From: Silvibacterium bohemicum
GTDB lineage: Bacteria > Acidobacteriota > Terriglobia > Terriglobales > Acidobacteriaceae
Assembly: GCF_001006305.1 (NCBI RefSeq)
Contig: NZ_LBHJ01000012.1
Span: forward strand, 594,231 to 658,230
Reading direction: 5' to 3'
DNA length: 64,000 bases
The notes beneath the pieces are model-generated. The model was not told the DNA's origin and did not search any database. It saw nothing but the letters and a program-made list of their open reading frames with translations. Positions 991-12,034 of the stretch are shown here, piece after piece. A program made the translations under genes and the position numbers. Numbering within the stretch: the stretch's first letter is position 1; each line of letters opens with the position of its first letter.

Positions 991-1407
991 ATGGAATAAG
1001 GCCACCATATCTTGCGCCGATCGATAGCGCAAGCCCATTGCTTGTGGATTTCGGGTGAAAGTCAGCACTCCCGGCTAGAGATCGAGAGTGGGCGCGGCGT
1101 GCCATATACGTTCGCATGATGAGACATCTTCGTTTCCTCGAACGCCATCGCAAACTCGATCTCGGATCTTATCCACGAGGAGCATCGCGAGCGCGAGTGC
1201 AGGCGAACATCGTGAGAACGCTTCTCGAGTTATTTGCTACGAATCTTGGTTCGAGCATGAACGGACCCTCTCTTCCGCTCACGCCGGATCGCGCTGTTTA
1301 TGCCTCGCAAAATCGAACGCAATTTGCCCAACAGAAAAAAATCGAAATGACATCGTCGAGACACTTCGAAGTTGGCGATGTGGTAATTTGCGTTAGAGTA
1401 ATAGCAT
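991..1407. other. Divergent intergenic region between the two riboswitches
   Basis: About 415 bases with no supported gene. Open frames here lack a ribosome binding site and any recognisable protein signature. The region must carry the two divergent promoters that transcribe the riboswitch leaders, but I cannot assign convincing -35/-10 boxes by eye. Confidence 0.6.
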
Positions 1408-1577
1408 CTTGGGTGCCCGCGAGGGCATAAAAGGGAAGCCGGTGTGAGTCCGGCATGGTCCCGCCACTGTGATCAGGAAAATGACTTTCCAGTAGCCACT
1501 CGGTCTTCGATCGGGGAAGGCGGAAAGTCAGGAGTCTGGCAACGCCGACTCCGCCTGTAAATCAGGAGACCTACCTA
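1408..1577 (+). promoter_or_regulatory. Cobalamin (B12) riboswitch, leader of the TonB-dependent receptor
   Basis: Canonical aptamer order: GGTGCCC with GGGCATAAAAGGGAA (1412-1437), CCGGTGTGAGTCCGG, the near-consensus B12 box GTCCCGCCACTGTGA (1458-1472), the GTAGCCACT element, GGGGAAGGCGG, then GTCAGGAGTCTGGC and the closing CAGGAGACCTACC ending near 1575. The GTG start of the receptor lies 12 nt further on, and the only ribosome binding site (AAGG, 1577-1580) touches the aptamer's 3' end. B12 binding therefore probably blocks translation start directly. This is an inference from spacing. Confidence 0.95.
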
Positions 1578-1587
1578 AGGCGAATTT

Positions 1588-4500
1588 GTGACACTTCTCC
1601 GCGTGGAAACGGAAAGCGATCGCTCATCAGCCTTTGAGCTTTTGTGCCCCTTCCCGCCATTTCAGGATTGTGAGGCGCACTTGTTCCGACCGACTTCGAT
1701 TTCCCCCGTTGCCGCCACTCGACCAGGCCTCCTTTGGCTCGCGATCGGATTTTTTCTTTTGATGTCAGCGCCCTTGTGGGCCGCAACTGGAGGCAGTATC
1801 TCCGGCGTGGTTGCGGATCAAAGCGGCGCTCTGGTTCCGGGAGCGACGCTGAAGCTGGTCAACACTGCGCAGCAAACGACCTATCAGGCGCTCTCTGACA
1901 AGCAAGGCCTCTACTCTTTCCCCAATCTTCCGGTCGGCCACTACGATCTCACTATTGAAGCCAATGGCTTCACGCCGCAGCGCAAAACAAATCTGACAGT
2001 AGACGCGGCCTCGGCGATTCGAGTGGACGTCGGCCTTGCAATTGGCTCGCGCACCGATTCTGTAACAGTCACGAGCGAGAACACCGTGCAGGTCGAGACC
2101 GCGGCGACGAATCTGGGTGAGGTTGTCTCGGGAGACCAGATGACTGCGCTTCCGTTGAACGGACGCAGCTATACGGATCTCCTTGCGATTCAACCAGGAG
2201 TAGCTCCCGTCTCGACCCTGTTGCCCACCTCGGTCATCATGGCAGGCGTGACCGGCAGCATCGATCCCTCGGGAGACCTGAACCCCGGCAATCTTTCCAT
2301 CAACGGCCAACGCGAATCGGCGAATGGCTTTCTTGTGGATGGGATCGATGTGCAGGAGCACATGAATGGCGGTACTTCGATCATTCCCGACCTTGATTCC
2401 ATCGAGCAGTTTCGAGTTTTAACGACGAATTTCGATCCGGAGTACGGCAACTACAACGGCGGCATCGTGACCGTCGTCAGCAAATCGGGAACCAATCAAC
2501 TTCATGGCAGAGCATTCGAGTTCTTCCGCAACACGAATCTGGATGCGCGGGGCTACTTCGATCCCACCCGCTCCGCCTTCAAGCAGAATCAGTTCGGCGG
2601 AGCGATCGGCGGTCCCATCAAGCGGGACAAAATCTTCTTCTTCGGCGACTACCAGGGAACGCGAACGACCCAAGGCGTCTCGACAGGGAACATCTCAGTA
2701 CCCACTCTCGCGCAGCGCAGTGGCAATTTTCTCGATCCCAGCACGGGGGCAAACATGCTTGCGGGCAACGTAAGCGGTCCCTACATTGCCTCCTTGCTGA
2801 CGCAGGAGCTGGGCTACGCCGTTACTTCGGGAGAAGCATATTCTTCTGTTTTTCCGAATGGCGTTATCCCGCAGGGCGCATGGTCCGCGCCCGCGAAGAA
2901 CCTGCTGCAATACATTCCTGCTCCCAATGTGAGCGCAAGCCAGTTCTCCACTTCCGCCTTCTCGCAGACGGTGCGTGACGATAAGGGATCGGGGCGCGTC
3001 GATTACAACAGTTGGCTAGGTCAGTTATCCGGTTATTACTTCTTAGACGACTACCTGCTGGACAATCCCTATCCGGGATCGGTTGCCGGCGCGAGCGTTC
3101 CCGGCTTCGACGCACTGACGATCGGACGAGCCCAGCTCTTCTCCTTGGGAGATACAAAGATTCTTGGCGCAAATACCGTGAATGAATTTCATCTCGGCTT
3201 TCTCCGCAATGCAAACATCATCGGTCAGCCGAAGGGTGGGCTCGGAGTGAGCCTGGCGTCACAAGGGTTTGCCTCGCCATCCAATGATGGAATCTTCGTG
3301 CAGGCGCCGCAATTTGAAGGTGTGGAGAACATCACCTTCCCGACATTTACCATGGGCGTGCCGATCACAAACCTGACGCAGGTAAACAATACCTGGTACG
3401 TGAGTGACGGCGTCTCCCGATCAATGGGCTCCCATACGCTGAAGTTCGGTGGCCAATACCACGCGGATCAGGTGAACAATCATCCGAACGCCACCTTCAA
3501 CGGGACCTTCAACATCGACAGCAGCACTGAAACAGGCAACTCGTATGCCAACTTTCTGTTGGGCACTCCGAGCAACTTCACCCAGTCTTCCGGCCAGCCG
3601 TTCTATCTAAGAAATCGATACTTCGGCCTGTATGGGCAGGACAGTTGGCGCGCGCGAAACGATCTGACAATCAATGCGGGTCTGCGCTGGGATGTCATCG
3701 CACCCTGGTGGGAAAAATTCAACCAGCTGCAAACCTATATTCCGGGAGCACAGTCAACTCTCTATCCGGGAGCTCCTCCGGGACTGGTCGTTGCCGGTGA
3801 CCCAGGCGTGCCAAAGACGCTCGCTCCTATCGACTACAGGAACTTCGCGCCGAGGGTCGGCGTTGCTTATTCGCCCCGGTTTGAACAGGGATTCTGGAGC
3901 AGGATTTTCGGAAGCAATGGACAAAGCAGTATTCGGGCCAGCTACGGCCTTTTCTACACTGCATTTCAGGGCCTTTCGGCGGGCATCATGTACGCTGTTC
4001 CTCCCTTCGGTTTTAACTACCTCAGCCCGGGACCGCCGTTGTTGGCCCAACCGTTCATTACAGCAGCTAGCGGAGTGAACAACGGACAGCGTTTTCCGTT
4101 CCCCTTTCCCTCACACCGCGTCTCCGCGTCCAAACCGGATACTGCAGTCAATTGGGCCAACTTCGTTCCCTTGGCTGCCGACCCGTTTTTCGATCACAAC
4201 AACCGTCCGACCTATACCAGCAACTACATGCTTTCGATTCAGCGGCAGATTACGCGAGAGACCTTGTTGACCGTAAGCTATGTGGGCAATCAAGGACATC
4301 GCATTCTCGCTTTGGTCTCAGCCAATCCTGGTAATCCTGCACTATGTCTGAGTCTCCCGGGCTGTGCTCCCTTCGGTGAAGACGCTAACTACATAAACAG
4401 CAGCGGACAGACCGTTTTTGGAACGCGAACAGGCCAGAACATAGGCACTCAGATCACCTCGACCAGCGAAAACTACGGAGAGAACACCTCCGATAGCTCC

Positions 4501-5226
4501 ATCGCCAACTCCAGCTACAACGCTCTCGAAACGACTCTTCGCTACCAGCACCACAGATCGCAGTTTCTGTTGAGCTATACCTACGCGAAGTCGATCGACC
4601 AGGGATCGAATCTCGGAGAACAGCTTAATCCCATCGATCCGCGCCAGAGCCGCGCTATCTCGGCTTGGGATATGAAACATGCCTTCGTCGGGAGCTATAC
4701 GCTGGCGCTTCCCTTTGCCGAGCTTCTGCATAAGAGCAATCGCCTGACAGAAGAATGGAGTCTCTCCGGCACGACCCGATTCACTACGGGCTTTCCTGTA
4801 ACGCTCTTCGATAATTCGGATAACTCGCTGCTCGGCACGCTCGGAAACGGCGCGAATAACTTTCTGCTCGATACTCCCCCGCACCTGCCGGGGGCACTCA
4901 AGATCAACACGAACGGCCGCAATGGCCGTCCGGCCTTCAATACTGCCTTGTTTCCCGAGGAAAATCTCGGTCAGCTTGGAAATGCGAAGCGCCGGGTTTT
5001 CTATGGTCCGGGGATTGAGAACTTCGACATGACGCTCCAAAAAGGCTTCCGCCTGCCCGACGCAAAATCACTGGAATTCCGTATGGAGGCATTCAACGTA
5101 TTCAATCATGCTCAGTTCTACGGCCCCTCCGCAGTGGATGGACAGACTGAAGATCCCAGCTTCGGCCAGATTGAAAGCGCCGCCGCTCCGCGCCTCGTAC
5201 AGCTTGCAGCGAAGTTCTCTTTCTAG
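1588..5226 (+). CDS. Oar-type TonB-dependent receptor under a B12 riboswitch
   Basis: 1212 residues from a GTG start. A hydrophobic signal segment (LLWLAIGFFLLMSAPLWA, residues 49-66) is followed by a carboxypeptidase-regulatory-like Ig domain (GGSISGVVADQSGALVPGA, about 68-150). Next come a plug domain (about 160-330, with LPLNGRSYTDLLAIQPGV and NGGIVTVVSKSGTNQLHG) and a long beta barrel ending in a C-terminal Phe, as expected for an outer-membrane protein. The N-terminus is long for a signal peptide; TTG at 1681 (residue 32) would give a normal one, so the start is uncertain. The cobalamin riboswitch directly upstream suggests uptake of cobalamin or a precursor, in place of a classical BtuB. 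Oar-type receptors are usually linked to glycans or unknown ligands, so substrate is inferred from regulation only. Confidence 0.9.
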   Translation: MTLLRVETESDRSSAFELLCPFPPFQDCEAHLFRPTSISPVAATRPGLLWLAIGFFLLMSAPLWAATGGSISGVVADQSGALVPGATLKLVNTAQQTTYQALSDKQGLYSFPNLPVGHYDLTIEANGFTPQRKTNLTVDAASAIRVDVGLAIGSRTDSVTVTSENTVQVETAATNLGEVVSGDQMTALPLNGRSYTDLLAIQPGVAPVSTLLPTSVIMAGVTGSIDPSGDLNPGNLSINGQRESANGFLVDGIDVQEHMNGGTSIIPDLDSIEQFRVLTTNFDPEYGNYNGGIVTVVSKSGTNQLHGRAFEFFRNTNLDARGYFDPTRSAFKQNQFGGAIGGPIKRDKIFFFGDYQGTRTTQGVSTGNISVPTLAQRSGNFLDPSTGANMLAGNVSGPYIASLLTQELGYAVTSGEAYSSVFPNGVIPQGAWSAPAKNLLQYIPAPNVSASQFSTSAFSQTVRDDKGSGRVDYNSWLGQLSGYYFLDDYLLDNPYPGSVAGASVPGFDALTIGRAQLFSLGDTKILGANTVNEFHLGFLRNANIIGQPKGGLGVSLASQGFASPSNDGIFVQAPQFEGVENITFPTFTMGVPITNLTQVNNTWYVSDGVSRSMGSHTLKFGGQYHADQVNNHPNATFNGTFNIDSSTETGNSYANFLLGTPSNFTQSSGQPFYLRNRYFGLYGQDSWRARNDLTINAGLRWDVIAPWWEKFNQLQTYIPGAQSTLYPGAPPGLVVAGDPGVPKTLAPIDYRNFAPRVGVAYSPRFEQGFWSRIFGSNGQSSIRASYGLFYTAFQGLSAGIMYAVPPFGFNYLSPGPPLLAQPFITAASGVNNGQRFPFPFPSHRVSASKPDTAVNWANFVPLAADPFFDHNNRPTYTSNYMLSIQRQITRETLLTVSYVGNQGHRILALVSANPGNPALCLSLPGCAPFGEDANYINSSGQTVFGTRTGQNIGTQITSTSENYGENTSDSSIANSSYNALETTLRYQHHRSQFLLSYTYAKSIDQGSNLGEQLNPIDPRQSRAISAWDMKHAFVGSYTLALPFAELLHKSNRLTEEWSLSGTTRFTTGFPVTLFDNSDNSLLGTLGNGANNFLLDTPPHLPGALKINTNGRNGRPAFNTALFPEENLGQLGNAKRRVFYGPGIENFDMTLQKGFRLPDAKSLEFRMEAFNVFNHAQFYGPSAVDGQTEDPSFGQIESAAAPRLVQLAAKFSF

Positions 5227-5278: not shown

Positions 5279-6592
5279 GTGGAGACTCCGTCAGAAAACA
5301 TCATCGGCATTGACTTCGGTACCACGAACAGCTCGGTCGCATTGGCTCACAAAGGCCGCGTGCGCATGGTGCCGTTTTTGCGGGCGGGCGGAGAAACCTT
5401 CTCCTCCCGCTCGTTGCTCTATCTCCAGAGGCAGATGCATCTTGCGCGCAAGCCGGTCTCGGTCTGGACAGGCGCGGAAGGCATTGAGAGATATCTCGAC
5501 CACGACAGTTTCAGCGATGAAGTGCAGGGGCGGTTGATCCAATCCCTGAAAAGCTATCTGTCCGCCCGCAACCTCGCCGGCACCGAGATCTTCGGCAGGC
5601 AATATCGTTTTCAGGACCTGGTCGCGCGCATCCTGGGCGATCTTCGTTTGCGCGCAAGCGAGTGGCTTGGCTTTGAAGTAAAGCAGGCTGTCGTCGGACG
5701 TCCGGTGATGTTCGTCGGAGCCGATTCGGAAGACGACAATGCGTTCGCTGTGGATCGTCTGCGGCAGGCTTTTCTGCAAGCGGGTTTCACGCATGTGACT
5801 TTCGCCATGGAGCCGGTCGCCGCGGCCTATGCCTACGAATCCACGGTCACTCAGGACGAGCTGGTTCTAATCGGCGACTTCGGTGGAGGAACGACGGATT
5901 TTTCTCTTCTTCGCGTCGGACCTACTGCGCGAACTTCCCAAGGGTTGCAGGTCCTTGGAAACAGCGGCATGGGGATTGCCGGTGATGCATTCGACGCAAG
6001 GATCGTGCGCAGGCTCATCTCTCCCGCATTGGGCTCGGAATCGATCACGCGTTCTTCGGGAAAGATTATGCCGGTATTGCCTGCATGGGTTTACACCAAT
6101 CTTGAGCGCTGGCACACCCTGTCGTTCCTGCGGACACGCGCAACCATGGATATGCTTCGCTCTGCGGAAAAGCGTGCTCCGGAGCCGGAGAAGATTGCCG
6201 CGCTGATCACGATTGTCGAGCATGATTTGGGCTATCGGCTGCATCAGGCAGTCCAGCATGTGAAGGTGGATCTGTCTCACCAGGAAGAGGCGGAGTTCGT
6301 TCTCGATACCGATATGCTCCATCTTCGTGCGCATGTGACTCGCACCCAATTTGAACAATGGATTGCACCTGAACTTGCGCGCATGGAAGGAAGTCTGGAG
6401 GATCTCCTGCAAAAAACGGAGATTTCTCCCGCGCAGGTCGACCGCGTCTTCCTGACTGGGGGGACTTCGCTTGTTCCGGCGGTGCGAAGCCTTTTCACTC
6501 AGCGATTTGGAGAAGATCGGGTGCAAAGCGGAGAAGCCTTCACCTCGGTGGCCTATGGACTGGCTTTGATGGCCGCTGGCTCGCAAAGCTGA
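5279..6592 (+). CDS. YegD-like Hsp70-family ATPase
   Basis: 437 residues from a GTG start. The actin-like ATPase fold is visible: phosphate-1 motif GIDFGTTNSSVA (residues 10-21), phosphate-2 motif GDFGGGTTDFSLL (about 199-211) and adenosine motif FLTGGTSLVPAV (about 391-402). Only the nucleotide-binding part is present; the DnaK peptide-binding domain is absent and the length matches the YegD group (about 450). VVGRPVMFVG and LPAWVYTNLERWHTLSFL resemble YegD signatures. It lies 52 nt after the receptor on the same strand and could share its transcript and hence B12 control, but a hairpin lies between. Cytosolic; client unknown. Confidence 0.87.
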   Translation: METPSENIIGIDFGTTNSSVALAHKGRVRMVPFLRAGGETFSSRSLLYLQRQMHLARKPVSVWTGAEGIERYLDHDSFSDEVQGRLIQSLKSYLSARNLAGTEIFGRQYRFQDLVARILGDLRLRASEWLGFEVKQAVVGRPVMFVGADSEDDNAFAVDRLRQAFLQAGFTHVTFAMEPVAAAYAYESTVTQDELVLIGDFGGGTTDFSLLRVGPTARTSQGLQVLGNSGMGIAGDAFDARIVRRLISPALGSESITRSSGKIMPVLPAWVYTNLERWHTLSFLRTRATMDMLRSAEKRAPEPEKIAALITIVEHDLGYRLHQAVQHVKVDLSHQEEAEFVLDTDMLHLRAHVTRTQFEQWIAPELARMEGSLEDLLQKTEISPAQVDRVFLTGGTSLVPAVRSLFTQRFGEDRVQSGEAFTSVAYGLALMAAGSQS

Positions 6593-7948: not shown

Positions 7949-10900
7949 TTAGAACTCCAGCCGAGCTCCGAACTGGAGGGTTCGCATATATGGCAAACCA
8001 GCGCCCGATACTGCGCTGTCGACTCCGGTGATTAGGCCCGAATCGCCAGTGCTGCAGTCGATGCAGCGGGCATTGGAAGCGCTTGGAACTCCAAGCGGCA
8101 CATGGTTGAAGACGTTGAACGCCTGGAACTGAATCTGCGCCCTCACCTGCTCTCGGATGGGAATGTCCTTGAAGACCGAAGCATCCGCAAAGAAGTCAGA
8201 AGGACCGCGAAGCCAATTGCGTCCTACATTGCCAATGGTCCCGAAAGCGGGCCGGGCAAACGCACCTGAGGATGATCCGGCCGTGGCAAGCGGCGCCACA
8301 GGAGAGAAATACCGGATCGCATGCGTCACAGGGTCGAGGCTGCCGACGTTCAGAGGCAGCGTTCCACCCGTCTTGTCAGGCCGGCAATCGCTGGAAGTGC
8401 CGGGGCTGGCGAAGTTGCTGTCGATGTCCTGATCGCTGCCGCACTCGCCATACGTGGGTGTAAAGGGAAGTCCGCCCTCCCATGTAGAATTCGCCGCAAG
8501 CTGCCAGCCGCCCAGCAGTTCGTTGACTGTGCGGTTCGCATCGCCCAGCAGCATCTTTCCTTTTCCTACCGGCAACTGCCACAGCCCAGTGATGGTGAAG
8601 AGTTGATTGCGATTCGTGTCGTTCGGTCCGTACTCCACGCGAGGATTTTGCGCGAAGTAAGTGGAGTTATAGTTGAGCGCGCGCGACCACGTGTAATTGG
8701 CGAGAATGCTGAAGCCGTGCGCGAAGCGCTGCTGAACGGTTGCCTGCAGTGCACTGTAGTTGGCACGCGCTGCGGGGAACAAGGAAGTAATGTCCTGGCT
8801 GCAGCAGTTGACAACTGCTCCGTTGTATAAGCTGGTGAAGCGATCGAAATAAGGTCTGCGTTGATCGCGGCTGCATCCGCTCGGGGAGCCAGGCGTGCAA
8901 GGTGTCGGGATGTTGGGATCGACCGCAGTCAGATCTGCAGGAGTCGACGGGAGCCGCGGTTCGTTCGCGCTGAACCCGTAAGTCTCGCCCGGATAGATGC
9001 GTTCGGCGACATTCCCTACATATGCAATGGTGAAGGTCATGTCCCCGGTGATCTGCTGTTGGAGGCTCAAATTCCACTGGTCGACTTTGGGAAGAAGCAG
9101 CGTGTTAGGCCGCCACGGCGCGTTAAAGCCATTCTGGATGGGAATGATTCCGTTGGCTGGGATAAAGGGTGCGGCGGGACTGGCCGGCAGCGTTCCGAAG
9201 GAATACTGATACTGTCCATTCGCGTTGCCTTTGGTCGCATCCTCGTCGATGTAAACCGGTAGATTGTGAGTCATCGCGCTGCCGAAGATGGTTCCGAAAA
9301 ACCCTTCGTCGTCGAAGACCTGTGCCGCTGCTCCGCGGAAGATCGTTCCCGGTCGCGCCTGCCAGGCAAAGCCCAGGTGTCCACCGAGGTTGGTGAGGTC
9401 CACGTTGGCGCCGCCATTGGTGCCGAAACCACCGACACCAGCTACACGAATTATGCCCGCCGGAAGATCGGTAAATCCACCTTGCCCGGGACTATTAACC
9501 GTCTCGGGAAAGACAATATCCCAGCGAACGCCATAATTCAGGGTGAAAGTCGGGGTCACCCTCCAGCGATCTTCTGCATAAAACGCACCGCGCTTCTGAC
9601 GATTGCCGGCAGTCTGGCTATAAACGTCATAGCGCTGGAAGGTATCGACAAAGCCCAGCAATACAGACGCCAGGCCCGAACCCGTCGGTGCAGCCGACCC
9701 CGGAACGGTCGTGCTGCCGTATCCGAAGCTGAGCTCGCCGGCGCGATCGAAGTCGCTAGCGTTGCGGAGGTTCAAGGCATAGCGAAGGTCTGCACCGAAA
9801 CGGACGGAATGATTGCCATGAATCATCGTCCAGTTATCAGCGACTTGAAAGACCTGTTCGCTCTCCAGCAGGGGGCAGTTGCAACCCTGTGTGCCGAAGT
9901 TGCTGATGCTGCCATCCTCGAGGTTGTATGTAGGTGAGCCTGAGGTGCTGAGCGTTCCCTGATTCAGATTGGGTAGTCCAATCGCCGCTGCCGGCGCGGC
10001 GCCATAGTCGAGCTTGTTTTCGTCGACGTGGTAATCCAGGAAACCGAAGCGGAAATCGGTTAGCAAGTTAGGACGCACAGCCCAATCGAAGCCAACGGAT
10101 GCGCTCTGGTTCTGGACCTGATCATTGCCGGTGGTGTTTCCCACTCCGAAGCCGCTCCCTCCGGCAGCGCCGAAGACCGCAGCGCCAAAGAGCCGATAGT
10201 TCGCGTAATCGTAACGGCCGAAGGCGTGAATGTTGGGCGTAGCCTGCGCGTCAAAGCGCGCATCGGCCTGGTCTCCGTCGTTGTTGCCGTTTCCGGAGGC
10301 GACGTAATTGTTAACCGTCGAGCCGGCCGCACCTGAATTCGGCGCGGGCAGCGCGTTCAGCAGAGCAATGCCCTGCGCGGTGAGAACCGAAGCTGGAACG
10401 GCCGCTGCCGGATAAGTGGTTCCGGTGGCCGGATCGAATACTGTTGTAGCGTACTGGCTCAGATTGCAGGGACCGGCTCCGCTCAGGCATGTACTGCGCA
10501 CCAACGCGGTGGGAACATTCTGCTGAAGCGTCTGGCCGACACGCTGCCGCGTGCCTTGATAGTCGAGAAAGAAGAAGGCCCGGTCTTTCTTGATGGGGCC
10601 GCCGAACGATCCGCCGAACTGGTTATACAGCTGGCCGGGAAAAGGAACTCCGGGATATTGCGTGAATGGATCGCGGGCCTCGAATTCGCCGCTGCGGCGG
10701 AAGTCGAAGAGGTCGCCATGAAACTGATTTCCTCCCGACTTCGTTTCAGCCACCACGAATCCACCTACGGCGCCACCGAACTCTGCCGGATAATCCTGCG
10801 TAATGGTCGTGATCTGGCTAACGGAATCGAGCGTTGGGTTTACGACGATGATGCCGTCAACCGGTTCGCGGTTATCGGTGCCATCCAGCTCCCAGCCCAG

Positions 10901-11521
10901 AGTTCCATAGTTGCTTCCATTCGCTTCTACGGCCACCGTTCCCTGGGGATTCTCTGTGGGATTGATGCTGAAGCTCGATCGTTGAATACCAGGGCTAAGC
11001 AGGGTGAGCTGGCTGGCATTCCGGTTGATATTGGGAATGGTGCTCACCTGCTGTGAGTCCAATGTCTGCGATACATCGGCGCTATCGGTTTTGAGGGGCG
11101 GCGCTGCGTCGGTGACGGTTACCGTCTGCGCAGCAGATCCCGGCGTCAGGCGCAGATTGATCTGTTGCGTCTGGCTCGCCAGAATGCTCACGTTCGGCGA
11201 CTGTGCGGGAGCGAATCCCGAAGCCTCGGCTTTGACGACATACGTATCGGGAATGAGCCGCGTGGCTTCGAAATTTCCACTGGCATTGCTGGTCACGGTC
11301 TGCGAAACGTCTTTGGTTGTGTCTGTCACCGTGACCGTTGCATTTGGAATGACCGCGCCGGTCGGGTCATTCACCGTACCGATAATCGATCCGAAGACCG
11401 CCTGCGCATTCGCGGGAAGAGAAAACAGAAGAGAGATGGAAAAGAGGACGACGACTGAAGAAAGAAAGGCGATTCCTCTCCGGCTACGCGGAGAAGATGG
11501 GGGATACATCCGGAACTTCAT
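7949..11521 (-). CDS. Oar-type TonB-dependent receptor (second)
   Basis: 1190 residues from the ATG at 11521, chosen because GGAGG lies 7 nt upstream; a longer frame begins 36 nt earlier without a site. A signal peptide (about residues 1-40, ending LPANA) is followed by a carboxypeptidase-regulatory-like domain (FGSIIGTVNDPTGAVIPNA, about 43-130). A plug domain (about 140-290) and a long barrel ending LQFGARLEF with terminal Phe follow. It is an outer-membrane importer energised by TonB. No riboswitch or co-transcribed enzyme shows its ligand; in Terriglobia such receptors are numerous and often linked to polysaccharide or peptide uptake. It shares architecture, not close sequence, with the receptor at 1588. 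Confidence 0.9.
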   Translation of the reverse strand: MKFRMYPPSSPRSRRGIAFLSSVVVLFSISLLFSLPANAQAVFGSIIGTVNDPTGAVIPNATVTVTDTTKDVSQTVTSNASGNFEATRLIPDTYVVKAEASGFAPAQSPNVSILASQTQQINLRLTPGSAAQTVTVTDAAPPLKTDSADVSQTLDSQQVSTIPNINRNASQLTLLSPGIQRSSFSINPTENPQGTVAVEANGSNYGTLGWELDGTDNREPVDGIIVVNPTLDSVSQITTITQDYPAEFGGAVGGFVVAETKSGGNQFHGDLFDFRRSGEFEARDPFTQYPGVPFPGQLYNQFGGSFGGPIKKDRAFFFLDYQGTRQRVGQTLQQNVPTALVRSTCLSGAGPCNLSQYATTVFDPATGTTYPAAAVPASVLTAQGIALLNALPAPNSGAAGSTVNNYVASGNGNNDGDQADARFDAQATPNIHAFGRYDYANYRLFGAAVFGAAGGSGFGVGNTTGNDQVQNQSASVGFDWAVRPNLLTDFRFGFLDYHVDENKLDYGAAPAAAIGLPNLNQGTLSTSGSPTYNLEDGSISNFGTQGCNCPLLESEQVFQVADNWTMIHGNHSVRFGADLRYALNLRNASDFDRAGELSFGYGSTTVPGSAAPTGSGLASVLLGFVDTFQRYDVYSQTAGNRQKRGAFYAEDRWRVTPTFTLNYGVRWDIVFPETVNSPGQGGFTDLPAGIIRVAGVGGFGTNGGANVDLTNLGGHLGFAWQARPGTIFRGAAAQVFDDEGFFGTIFGSAMTHNLPVYIDEDATKGNANGQYQYSFGTLPASPAAPFIPANGIIPIQNGFNAPWRPNTLLLPKVDQWNLSLQQQITGDMTFTIAYVGNVAERIYPGETYGFSANEPRLPSTPADLTAVDPNIPTPCTPGSPSGCSRDQRRPYFDRFTSLYNGAVVNCCSQDITSLFPAARANYSALQATVQQRFAHGFSILANYTWSRALNYNSTYFAQNPRVEYGPNDTNRNQLFTITGLWQLPVGKGKMLLGDANRTVNELLGGWQLAANSTWEGGLPFTPTYGECGSDQDIDSNFASPGTSSDCRPDKTGGTLPLNVGSLDPVTHAIRYFSPVAPLATAGSSSGAFARPAFGTIGNVGRNWLRGPSDFFADASVFKDIPIREQVRAQIQFQAFNVFNHVPLGVPSASNARCIDCSTGDSGLITGVDSAVSGAGLPYMRTLQFGARLEF

Positions 11522-12034
11522 AAGACTGCCTCCAAAAAGGATGCGGGGGCCAATCACATTGGATTGCCCTGTATATGTACTGAAAAGCTATGTACTACAC
11601 GGTCATCATTGTGAACGCACAAATCCGCTCACCGACAGCTTCCGCATGTGGGCTTAGATGCTGTCGTTCGAAGAGGAGATTGCTGGATATTTTTCGCGGC
11701 TCTAAAAGAGCTCACAGAATAATCGTCGTGACGCGAAGTATTCGGCGAAGGGTATTTACTGAATTGCCGCGATTCGTTTGAGTCTAGTCCGTAGATGGAG
11801 GGTCTTCTTGCGAAGATAACGGCGACCGGTGACGGCAGCTGCGATCGTCCGAGTATTAGCGCTCGTCGCTAGGAGTGGTTTTGACGAGAATACGGCCGGC
11901 CCTGGGTGAGCGTTGAACTCCTGCGCGAAACGATAACCGGAGGGCATTCAACTTTTGGCAAATCGGCAGAATGAGACTTCCTGGAATTGAGGGACGGGAA
12001 GAGCGCGCCAGGGACCGTCCCTCAAAAGCCCTTG
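11522..12034. other. Intergenic region upstream of second receptor
   Basis: About 510 bases without a supported gene. It holds the receptor's ribosome binding site, two direct TATGTACT copies at 11574-11581 and 11589-11596 (15-bp spacing, possible operator, weak) and a hairpin at 11989-12023. Otherwise I see nothing I can name. Confidence 0.5.
11989..12023 (-). terminator. Hairpin downstream of the small secreted protein gene
   Basis: Perfect 9-bp inverted repeat GAGGGACGG (11989-11997) and CCGTCCCTC (12015-12023), starting 12 nt past the stop of the minus-strand gene at 12035. There is no strong U-tract on the minus strand, so terminator strength is uncertain. Confidence 0.5.

Follow-up and report, generated by a model that had tools for sequence, protein, structure and literature searches.

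A cobalamin riboswitch precedes an Oar-type receptor gene in Silvibacterium bohemicum and its relatives: a candidate corrinoid importer

We analyzed a 64,000-nucleotide stretch of the genome of Silvibacterium bohemicum (assembly GCF_001006305.1, contig NZ_LBHJ01000012.1, positions 594,231 to 658,230; hereafter the window, whose own numbering is used for its features), which contains a gene for a large Oar-type outer-membrane receptor (1681-5226, + strand) preceded by a complete cobalamin riboswitch. It is probable that this receptor has been recruited into the adenosylcobalamin regulon of the Edaphobacter/Granulicella lineage, where it would import cobalamin or another corrinoid beside a BtuB-like receptor. 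Comparison of related loci gives good support to the view that the riboswitch does not stand before the gene by chance, and that membership of the receptor in the adenosylcobalamin regulon is a trait conserved within one clade. Cobalamin or another corrinoid is its most likely cargo, this being the most economical interpretation. The sequence-based parts of the analysis are the riboswitch with its conservation and covariation, the family assignment of the receptor, the restriction of the arrangement to one clade in this sample, and the identity of the neighboring genes.

To our knowledge, the cargo of PF25183 receptors, of which this genome encodes approximately 65 (split matches merged by eye), is largely unknown. 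The riboswitch, which names a metabolite, offers a direct lead for one of them, and several of the species concerned are represented by named isolates. If the cargo is a corrinoid, this would be a B12 receptor from outside the BtuB family, with a bearing on vitamin sharing by soil bacteria. No publication tying an Oar-type receptor to cobalamin was found in a literature search, which had subscription journals mostly outside its reach.

The riboswitch and its distribution

A covariance-model search of the window identified a complete cobalamin riboswitch aptamer (RF00174) at positions 1394-1592 (+), which covers model positions 1-189 with a score of 101 bits (E 4.3e-24; gathering score 31.5). 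The near-consensus riboswitch reported upstream of the gene in a preliminary description of this DNA is therefore confirmed. Such an aptamer also precedes 13 orthologs of the receptor gene. Aptamers and leaders were aligned for 13 sequences (the window and 12 orthologs), with the exclusion of the Granulicella L60 locus (L200), since its leader differs; compensatory changes were found at 12 of the 46 predicted consensus pairs of the aptamer.

The 3′ end of the riboswitch had been described as abutting the ribosome binding site, which is probably wrong. The motif GAGG at positions 1672-1675 (+), the likely Shine-Dalgarno sequence of the receptor gene, is situated 80 bases beyond the aptamer and is followed by TTG at 1681. 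All 13 leaders contain GAGG 68-80 bases 3′ of the aptamer, with an in-frame start codon 3-6 bases further on (ATG, GTG or TTG in 12 leaders, CTG in one); the aptamer therefore probably does not abut the ribosome binding site. As judged from these sequences, the receptor probably starts at TTG 1681 and not at GTG 1588, the first codon of the longest frame, which overlaps the last bases of the aptamer. A segment 3′ of the aptamer (1596-1626, +) is strongly conserved across the 13 leaders and yields a consensus hairpin of 6 pairs, one of them covarying, which was the sole (and small) hairpin obtained with RNAalifold; this segment is possibly part of the expression platform. A stem masking GAGG, which several leaders allow when folded by eye, is a guess: no single sequence passed a shuffle test at 0.05, and the fraction of 500 shuffles performing equally or better ranged from 0.056 to 0.90 per sequence. 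That the riboswitch acts at translation initiation would be our guess, made by analogy.

Relatives of the receptor were collected by a contig scan with a six-sequence alignment, from which the best 80 of 395 relatives were kept. Of the 23 closest loci (L197-L219), 12 have RF00174 directly upstream of the receptor; these 12 originate from (i) Granulicella dw_53, S190, L60 and S156, (ii) Edaphobacter aggregans, E. lichenicola X5P2 and M8US30, and E. modestus, and (iii) four metagenome bins. The ortholog of a further genome of the same genus as S. bohemicum (G060; 76% identity) carries the riboswitch as well. All 14 riboswitch-linked receptors fell within a single 23-member Edaphobacter/Granulicella clade (SH-aLRT 100) of a quick, midpoint-rooted tree that comprised 84 receptors. 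A pattern scan of 59 loci outside the clade (L218-L276), 51 of which have at least 500 bases upstream, revealed no riboswitch; the same scan recovers 77 of 96 known sites and, applied to 905,202 bases of shuffled sequence, gave 0 matches.

A quick tree of 136 riboswitches, its support unexamined, placed each of 13 receptor aptamers nearest to another of these 13. The riboswitch of L200 (4673-4864, +) differed from them in that its nearest neighbor was an nrdA-type switch; it is therefore probable that switches have been acquired upstream of this receptor at least twice.

The Oar-type receptor and its BtuB-like counterparts

The longest open frame of the receptor gene (1588-5226, +) encodes 1212 amino acids (aa), of which 1181 aa remain when translation is started at the conserved TTG 1681. 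The product contains (i) a probable signal peptide of 34 aa, judged by eye from the translation (1681-1782), (ii) a carboxypeptidase-regulatory-like domain (1795-2037, residues 70-150 of the 1212-aa frame; PF13620 CarboxypepD_reg, 71.8 bits vs. a gathering cut-off of 32.3), (iii) a plug-like region (2122-2454; PF07715, 21.5 bits, under the cut-off of 23.9) and (iv) an outer-membrane beta-barrel of the OMP_b-brl_4 family (2476-5202; PF25183, 588 bits vs. 30), all on the + strand. We take this family to be the one called Oar-type. The giant receptor with a carboxypeptidase-regulatory-like N-terminus that had been noted earlier was thus found as described. Its sequence is conserved along its length among relatives, and the four orthologs scanned are likewise PF25183 receptors with a CarboxypepD_reg domain above the cut-off. 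The protein is presumably TonB-dependent.

A scan against NCBIfam gave no match of the receptor to the B12 receptor model TIGR01779 at E 0.001, and a weak match to PqqU (21.6 bits). Sequence comparison with solved structures revealed none matching the barrel; the 7 weak matches obtained were mostly to the N-terminal domain. An AlphaFold2 model based on a 49-row alignment was of low confidence (mean pLDDT 58.9, pTM 0.54). The 50 Foldseek matches listed for this model were mostly TonB-dependent receptors of many cargoes, with TMq values of at most 0.35, and E. coli BtuB held rank 39 among them.

We also surveyed the cobalamin riboswitches of the family Acidobacteriaceae in 60 genomes, S. bohemicum included, 57 of which have at least one. 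This yielded 97 sites, of which 96 were classified (the other, G058:C97, lay in no retrieved stretch). As judged by the best reference, 57 of the 96 riboswitches precede BtuB-like receptors; nrdA and metE are also found behind such switches. A BtuB-like receptor under a riboswitch is present in 55 of the 57 riboswitch-bearing genomes (3 added by tblastn), the two exceptions being S. bohemicum and a genome with a single site, located before metE. In the phylum as a whole, 69 sites chosen among the matches listed were classified by best reference, and none of them precedes an Oar-type gene; in this set 29 loci extend only about 1500 bases downstream and the sites of genus g33 are partly covered, so that further cases are possible.

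The riboswitch-linked BtuB-like frames are mostly 720-890 aa long, some of them running through the riboswitch. The BtuB-like receptors used for comparison were named by best score only, and genes in the genomes with riboswitch-linked receptors by similarity to a reference set, whose genes named here were confirmed by family scan. A plug and a CarboxypepD_reg domain are present in each of the five BtuB-like receptors scanned, of which four are riboswitch-linked; the CarboxypepD_reg match exceeds the Pfam cut-off in three. The receptor of the window therefore resembles BtuB (TIGR01779) and the BtuB-like receptors of Acidobacteriaceae in being an outer-membrane receptor behind a cobalamin riboswitch and, with respect to the latter, in its N-terminal domain, whereas it differs in its PF25183 barrel, its length and the lack of a TIGR01779 match. 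The earlier statement that it is unlike BtuB-type proteins holds for these three properties and fails for the N-terminal domain; what is unusual in this receptor is the barrel and the length of 1181 aa.

The genome of S. bohemicum (6.46 Mb, 25 contigs) contains five cobalamin riboswitches over the cut-off, which precede (i) a cobG/cobIJ operon, (ii) cobN, (iii) a cobU/cobB/cobT operon, (iv) nrdA and (v) the Oar-type receptor gene; a sixth site, below the cut-off (28.1 bits), precedes cbtA. Its BtuB-like receptor (L019, 9560-12025, +; contig C24) has no riboswitch, and the 75% identical ortholog of G067 has one. In 6 of the 14 genomes (S. bohemicum, G086-G089 and G092), no outer-membrane receptor other than the Oar-type one was seen under a riboswitch, some of the 14 being metagenome bins; the cultivable E. 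lichenicola X5P2 and M8US30 and Granulicella sp. S190 and L60 belong to this group; two weak sites below the cut-off (G086:C37:12702 and G088:C43:11307) are outside this count. G084 carries an additional riboswitch-linked receptor, of siderophore type (L327, 434-2887; TIGR01783, 217 bits), which is accompanied by a PepSY_TM protein. In L427 (G151), a similar-looking frame of 792 aa, recognized by eye, is located under a cobalamin riboswitch as well. The BtuB-like genes of the 7 genomes without a linked one are preceded by no riboswitch in a permissive RF00174 search (to E 10). Degenerate riboswitches were likewise rejected at the BtuB-like genes of S. bohemicum, G084, G086-G089, G092, G060 (C1:418440) and G093 (C157), none of which gave an RF00174 match to E 10. 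A riboswitch-linked BtuB-like receptor is thus found in 7 of the 14 genomes, compared with 55 of the 56 other genomes of the family (Fisher p 2e-5, a value that is illustrative only, because the genomes are related).

Proposed function and alternative explanations

According to the model we favor, abundant coenzyme B12 would be bound by the leader aptamer, acting as a putative off-switch, and expression would drop, most likely at the level of translation initiation from GAGG 1672-1675. When coenzyme B12 is scarce, the receptor would be made; it would capture cobalamin or another corrinoid at the cell surface and, with energy provided by TonB, pass it to the periplasm. It may work beside the BtuB-like receptor, or be the member of the pair that is regulated by B12. 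Whether PF25183 importers of the Edaphobacter/Granulicella lineage form another class of outer-membrane corrinoid transporters next to BtuB, one that gained its switches at least twice and in several species displaced the BtuB-like receptor from riboswitch control (the latter being kept without a switch), is in our estimation evenly balanced.

Genes related to cobalamin are located beside the receptor in three other species. In G060 it has a btuF-like gene with cbtA on one side and, on the other, a cob cluster, which also includes a BtuB-like receptor with its own riboswitch. In L204, where the receptor has no switch of its own, a divergent riboswitch faces genes for a btuFCD-like ABC transporter (scoring below the Btu model cut-offs) and for CobN, and in L209 the genes cobL, cobM, cobK and cobF are placed upstream of the receptor in the same direction. 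BtuF is the best or second-best model, under the cut-off, for the binding protein encoded near the receptor in G060 and L204. The same search found no cobalamin genes in the remaining loci of the 80, the one exception being a DUF6580 gene in L225, a locus that does not belong to the clade.

Several observations weigh against import of a corrinoid by this receptor. A BtuB-like receptor is present in all 18 genomes searched (that of G098:C11:195197, which was not retrieved as a region, was counted in this search), and in 7 of the 14 genomes with a linked Oar-type receptor (G060, G085, G090 and G093-G096) a BtuB-like receptor is riboswitch-linked as well; the Oar-type protein therefore need not fill a gap, and its role as a substitute for a lost btuB was rejected. 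The preliminary description had envisaged that genomes with riboswitch-linked Oar-type receptors might lack btuB; the receptors were indeed found, 14 of them in one clade, but not the lack of btuB. A BtuB-like gene under its own cobalamin riboswitch, btuB under such a switch having been named there as one half of a result speaking against B12 import, occurs in those 7 genomes and not in the other 7, S. bohemicum among them. Each of the five BtuB-like receptors scanned has TIGR01779 as its best NCBIfam model, but with scores of 75.8 to 204.1 bits against a cut-off of 599.7. The structural model, with its low confidence, gives no readout of the cargo. Within the clade, the riboswitch is missing in 9 of the 23 members, at least one of which is a second copy in a genome with a linked receptor (L208 beside L203, in G090), and the G067 ortholog (L132, also L205), although 77% identical, has none. 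Neighbors belonging to the cobalamin regulon were found for only 4 of the 23 clade members, with nrdAB of the window counted and some contigs being short.

The inner-membrane step is a further point of this kind. No FecCD (BtuC-type) permease was found in the genome of S. bohemicum; the domain was found in 6 of the 18 genomes (one match being a fragment) and not in the other 12. It is also missing from G085, G090 and G094, which possess a riboswitch-linked BtuB-like receptor, so that this lack is not peculiar to the Oar-type protein. According to the accessible part of a published study, BtuB without BtuCDF is already known, and cobalt is ligated in BtuM by a conserved cysteine (PMC6072759). 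Of the 18 genomes, 10 encode DUF6580 proteins. A BtuM role for the DUF6580 protein of S. bohemicum (C4:111670-112167) was rejected, as no cysteine was seen in its membrane part by eye, unaligned to the solved BtuM; this also speaks against corrinoid import.

It is possible, though we regard it as unlikely, that the receptor imports not B12 itself but something needed for its synthesis, i.e. a cobalt chelate, a corrinoid precursor or a lower-ligand base. Cobalamin riboswitch regulons are known to include genes for cobalt transport (as stated in the accessible part of PMC3766115), and cbtA, encoding a probable cobalt transporter subunit, is present in the G060 cluster and behind the weak riboswitch of S. 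bohemicum, a genome with three cob operons under riboswitches and without a FecCD permease for intact B12. The binding protein of G060 and L204, with its sub-threshold similarity to BtuF, argues against this explanation, as do the receptors occupying the equivalent place in relatives, which score best with the B12 receptor model, again below the cut-off. Even less likely is that the receptor supplies a B12-independent bypass with a nutrient (e.g. methionine peptides or deoxynucleosides) and is regulated in the manner of nrdA and metE. Both of these genes are under such riboswitches in the family, the receptor gene is divergent to nrdAB, and many of the approximately 65 PF25183 proteins of the genome must carry other cargo; cobalamin transport and synthesis genes, however, adjoin the receptor in the three other species mentioned above, and the majority of the classified family riboswitches (57 of 96) precede BtuB-like receptors.

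In Myxococcus xanthus, secretion of PopC requires Oar (PMC6434023, accessible part). Oar resembles the receptor of the window, by description only, as an Oar-type receptor with an N-terminal extension, and differs from it in its role, which is secretion; the accessible part of the same source mentions no riboswitch for it. That the receptor secretes or displays a protein in a similar manner, with B12 status merely setting the time, appears very improbable: gene lists read by eye revealed no recurrent gene, for a protease or otherwise, beside the linked orthologs, and it is not known, according to the accessible part of PMC6434023, by which features secreting and importing receptors differ. Least of all do we expect that the riboswitch was placed by chance or hitchhiking and does not serve the receptor. 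The two back-to-back riboswitches of the window make a duplication from the nrdA leader possible, and the 9 switchless clade members also speak for this explanation; yet 14 orthologs keep the switch while their neighbors differ, its pairs covary, the leader, GAGG and the in-frame start are conserved, and the switch in the window is nearest to those of the orthologs and not to the adjacent nrdA switch.

The product of ppe2 of Mycobacterium tuberculosis belongs to a protein family presumably unrelated to the receptor of the window. Like the receptor gene, ppe2 stands behind a B12 riboswitch and is of uncertain function (PMC11260477, accessible part). The BtuB/BtuG/BtuH loci of gut Bacteroidetes are comparable in that several riboswitch-linked cobamide transport loci occur per genome; in contrast to the receptor described here, the Bacteroidetes transporters are BtuB homologs with surface lipoproteins (PMC8941943, accessible part).

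Other features of the window and of related loci

The window contains two complete cobalamin riboswitches, arranged back to back. The second (818-1008, -; RF00174, 107.9 bits), which went unmentioned in the preliminary description, is divergent from that of the receptor gene and precedes nrdA and nrdB, encoding a class I ribonucleotide reductase. A divergent riboswitch is also present in L216 (1-96, -; 33.6 bits), approximately 700 bases upstream of the receptor's own switch, where it is cut by the contig end, its target falling outside the contig.

Directly 3′ of the receptor gene, an ORF at 5279-6592 (+) encodes an Hsp70-like protein, whose best NCBIfam model is PRK11678 (below the cut-off); among the 35 loci listed from relatives, none showed such a gene next to the receptor. 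A further PF25183 receptor, with no over-threshold riboswitch in the window, is encoded at 7949-11557 (-). The genome also contains a paralog of the riboswitch-linked receptor (54% identity; L195, 5159-8704, -; contig C16), the end of which adjoins, in convergent orientation, an operon with cobN and chelatase genes. This proximity was taken as coincidence, since relatives of the paralog have no cob neighbor among the 80 loci.

Single loci of other genomes showed additional features. A FecCD fragment located between a riboswitch and cobN in L326 (G095:C23:453041-453295) resembles a decayed btuC. In G058, a weaker riboswitch (G058:C176:79740; 48.5 bits) precedes a gene for a 754-aa receptor (L060, 5252-7513, -) with a CarboxypepD_reg domain and a weak plug, which is neither clearly BtuB-like nor PF25183; its best reference was an Oar-type paralog but it gave no PF25183 match, and it was not counted among the linked Oar-type receptors.

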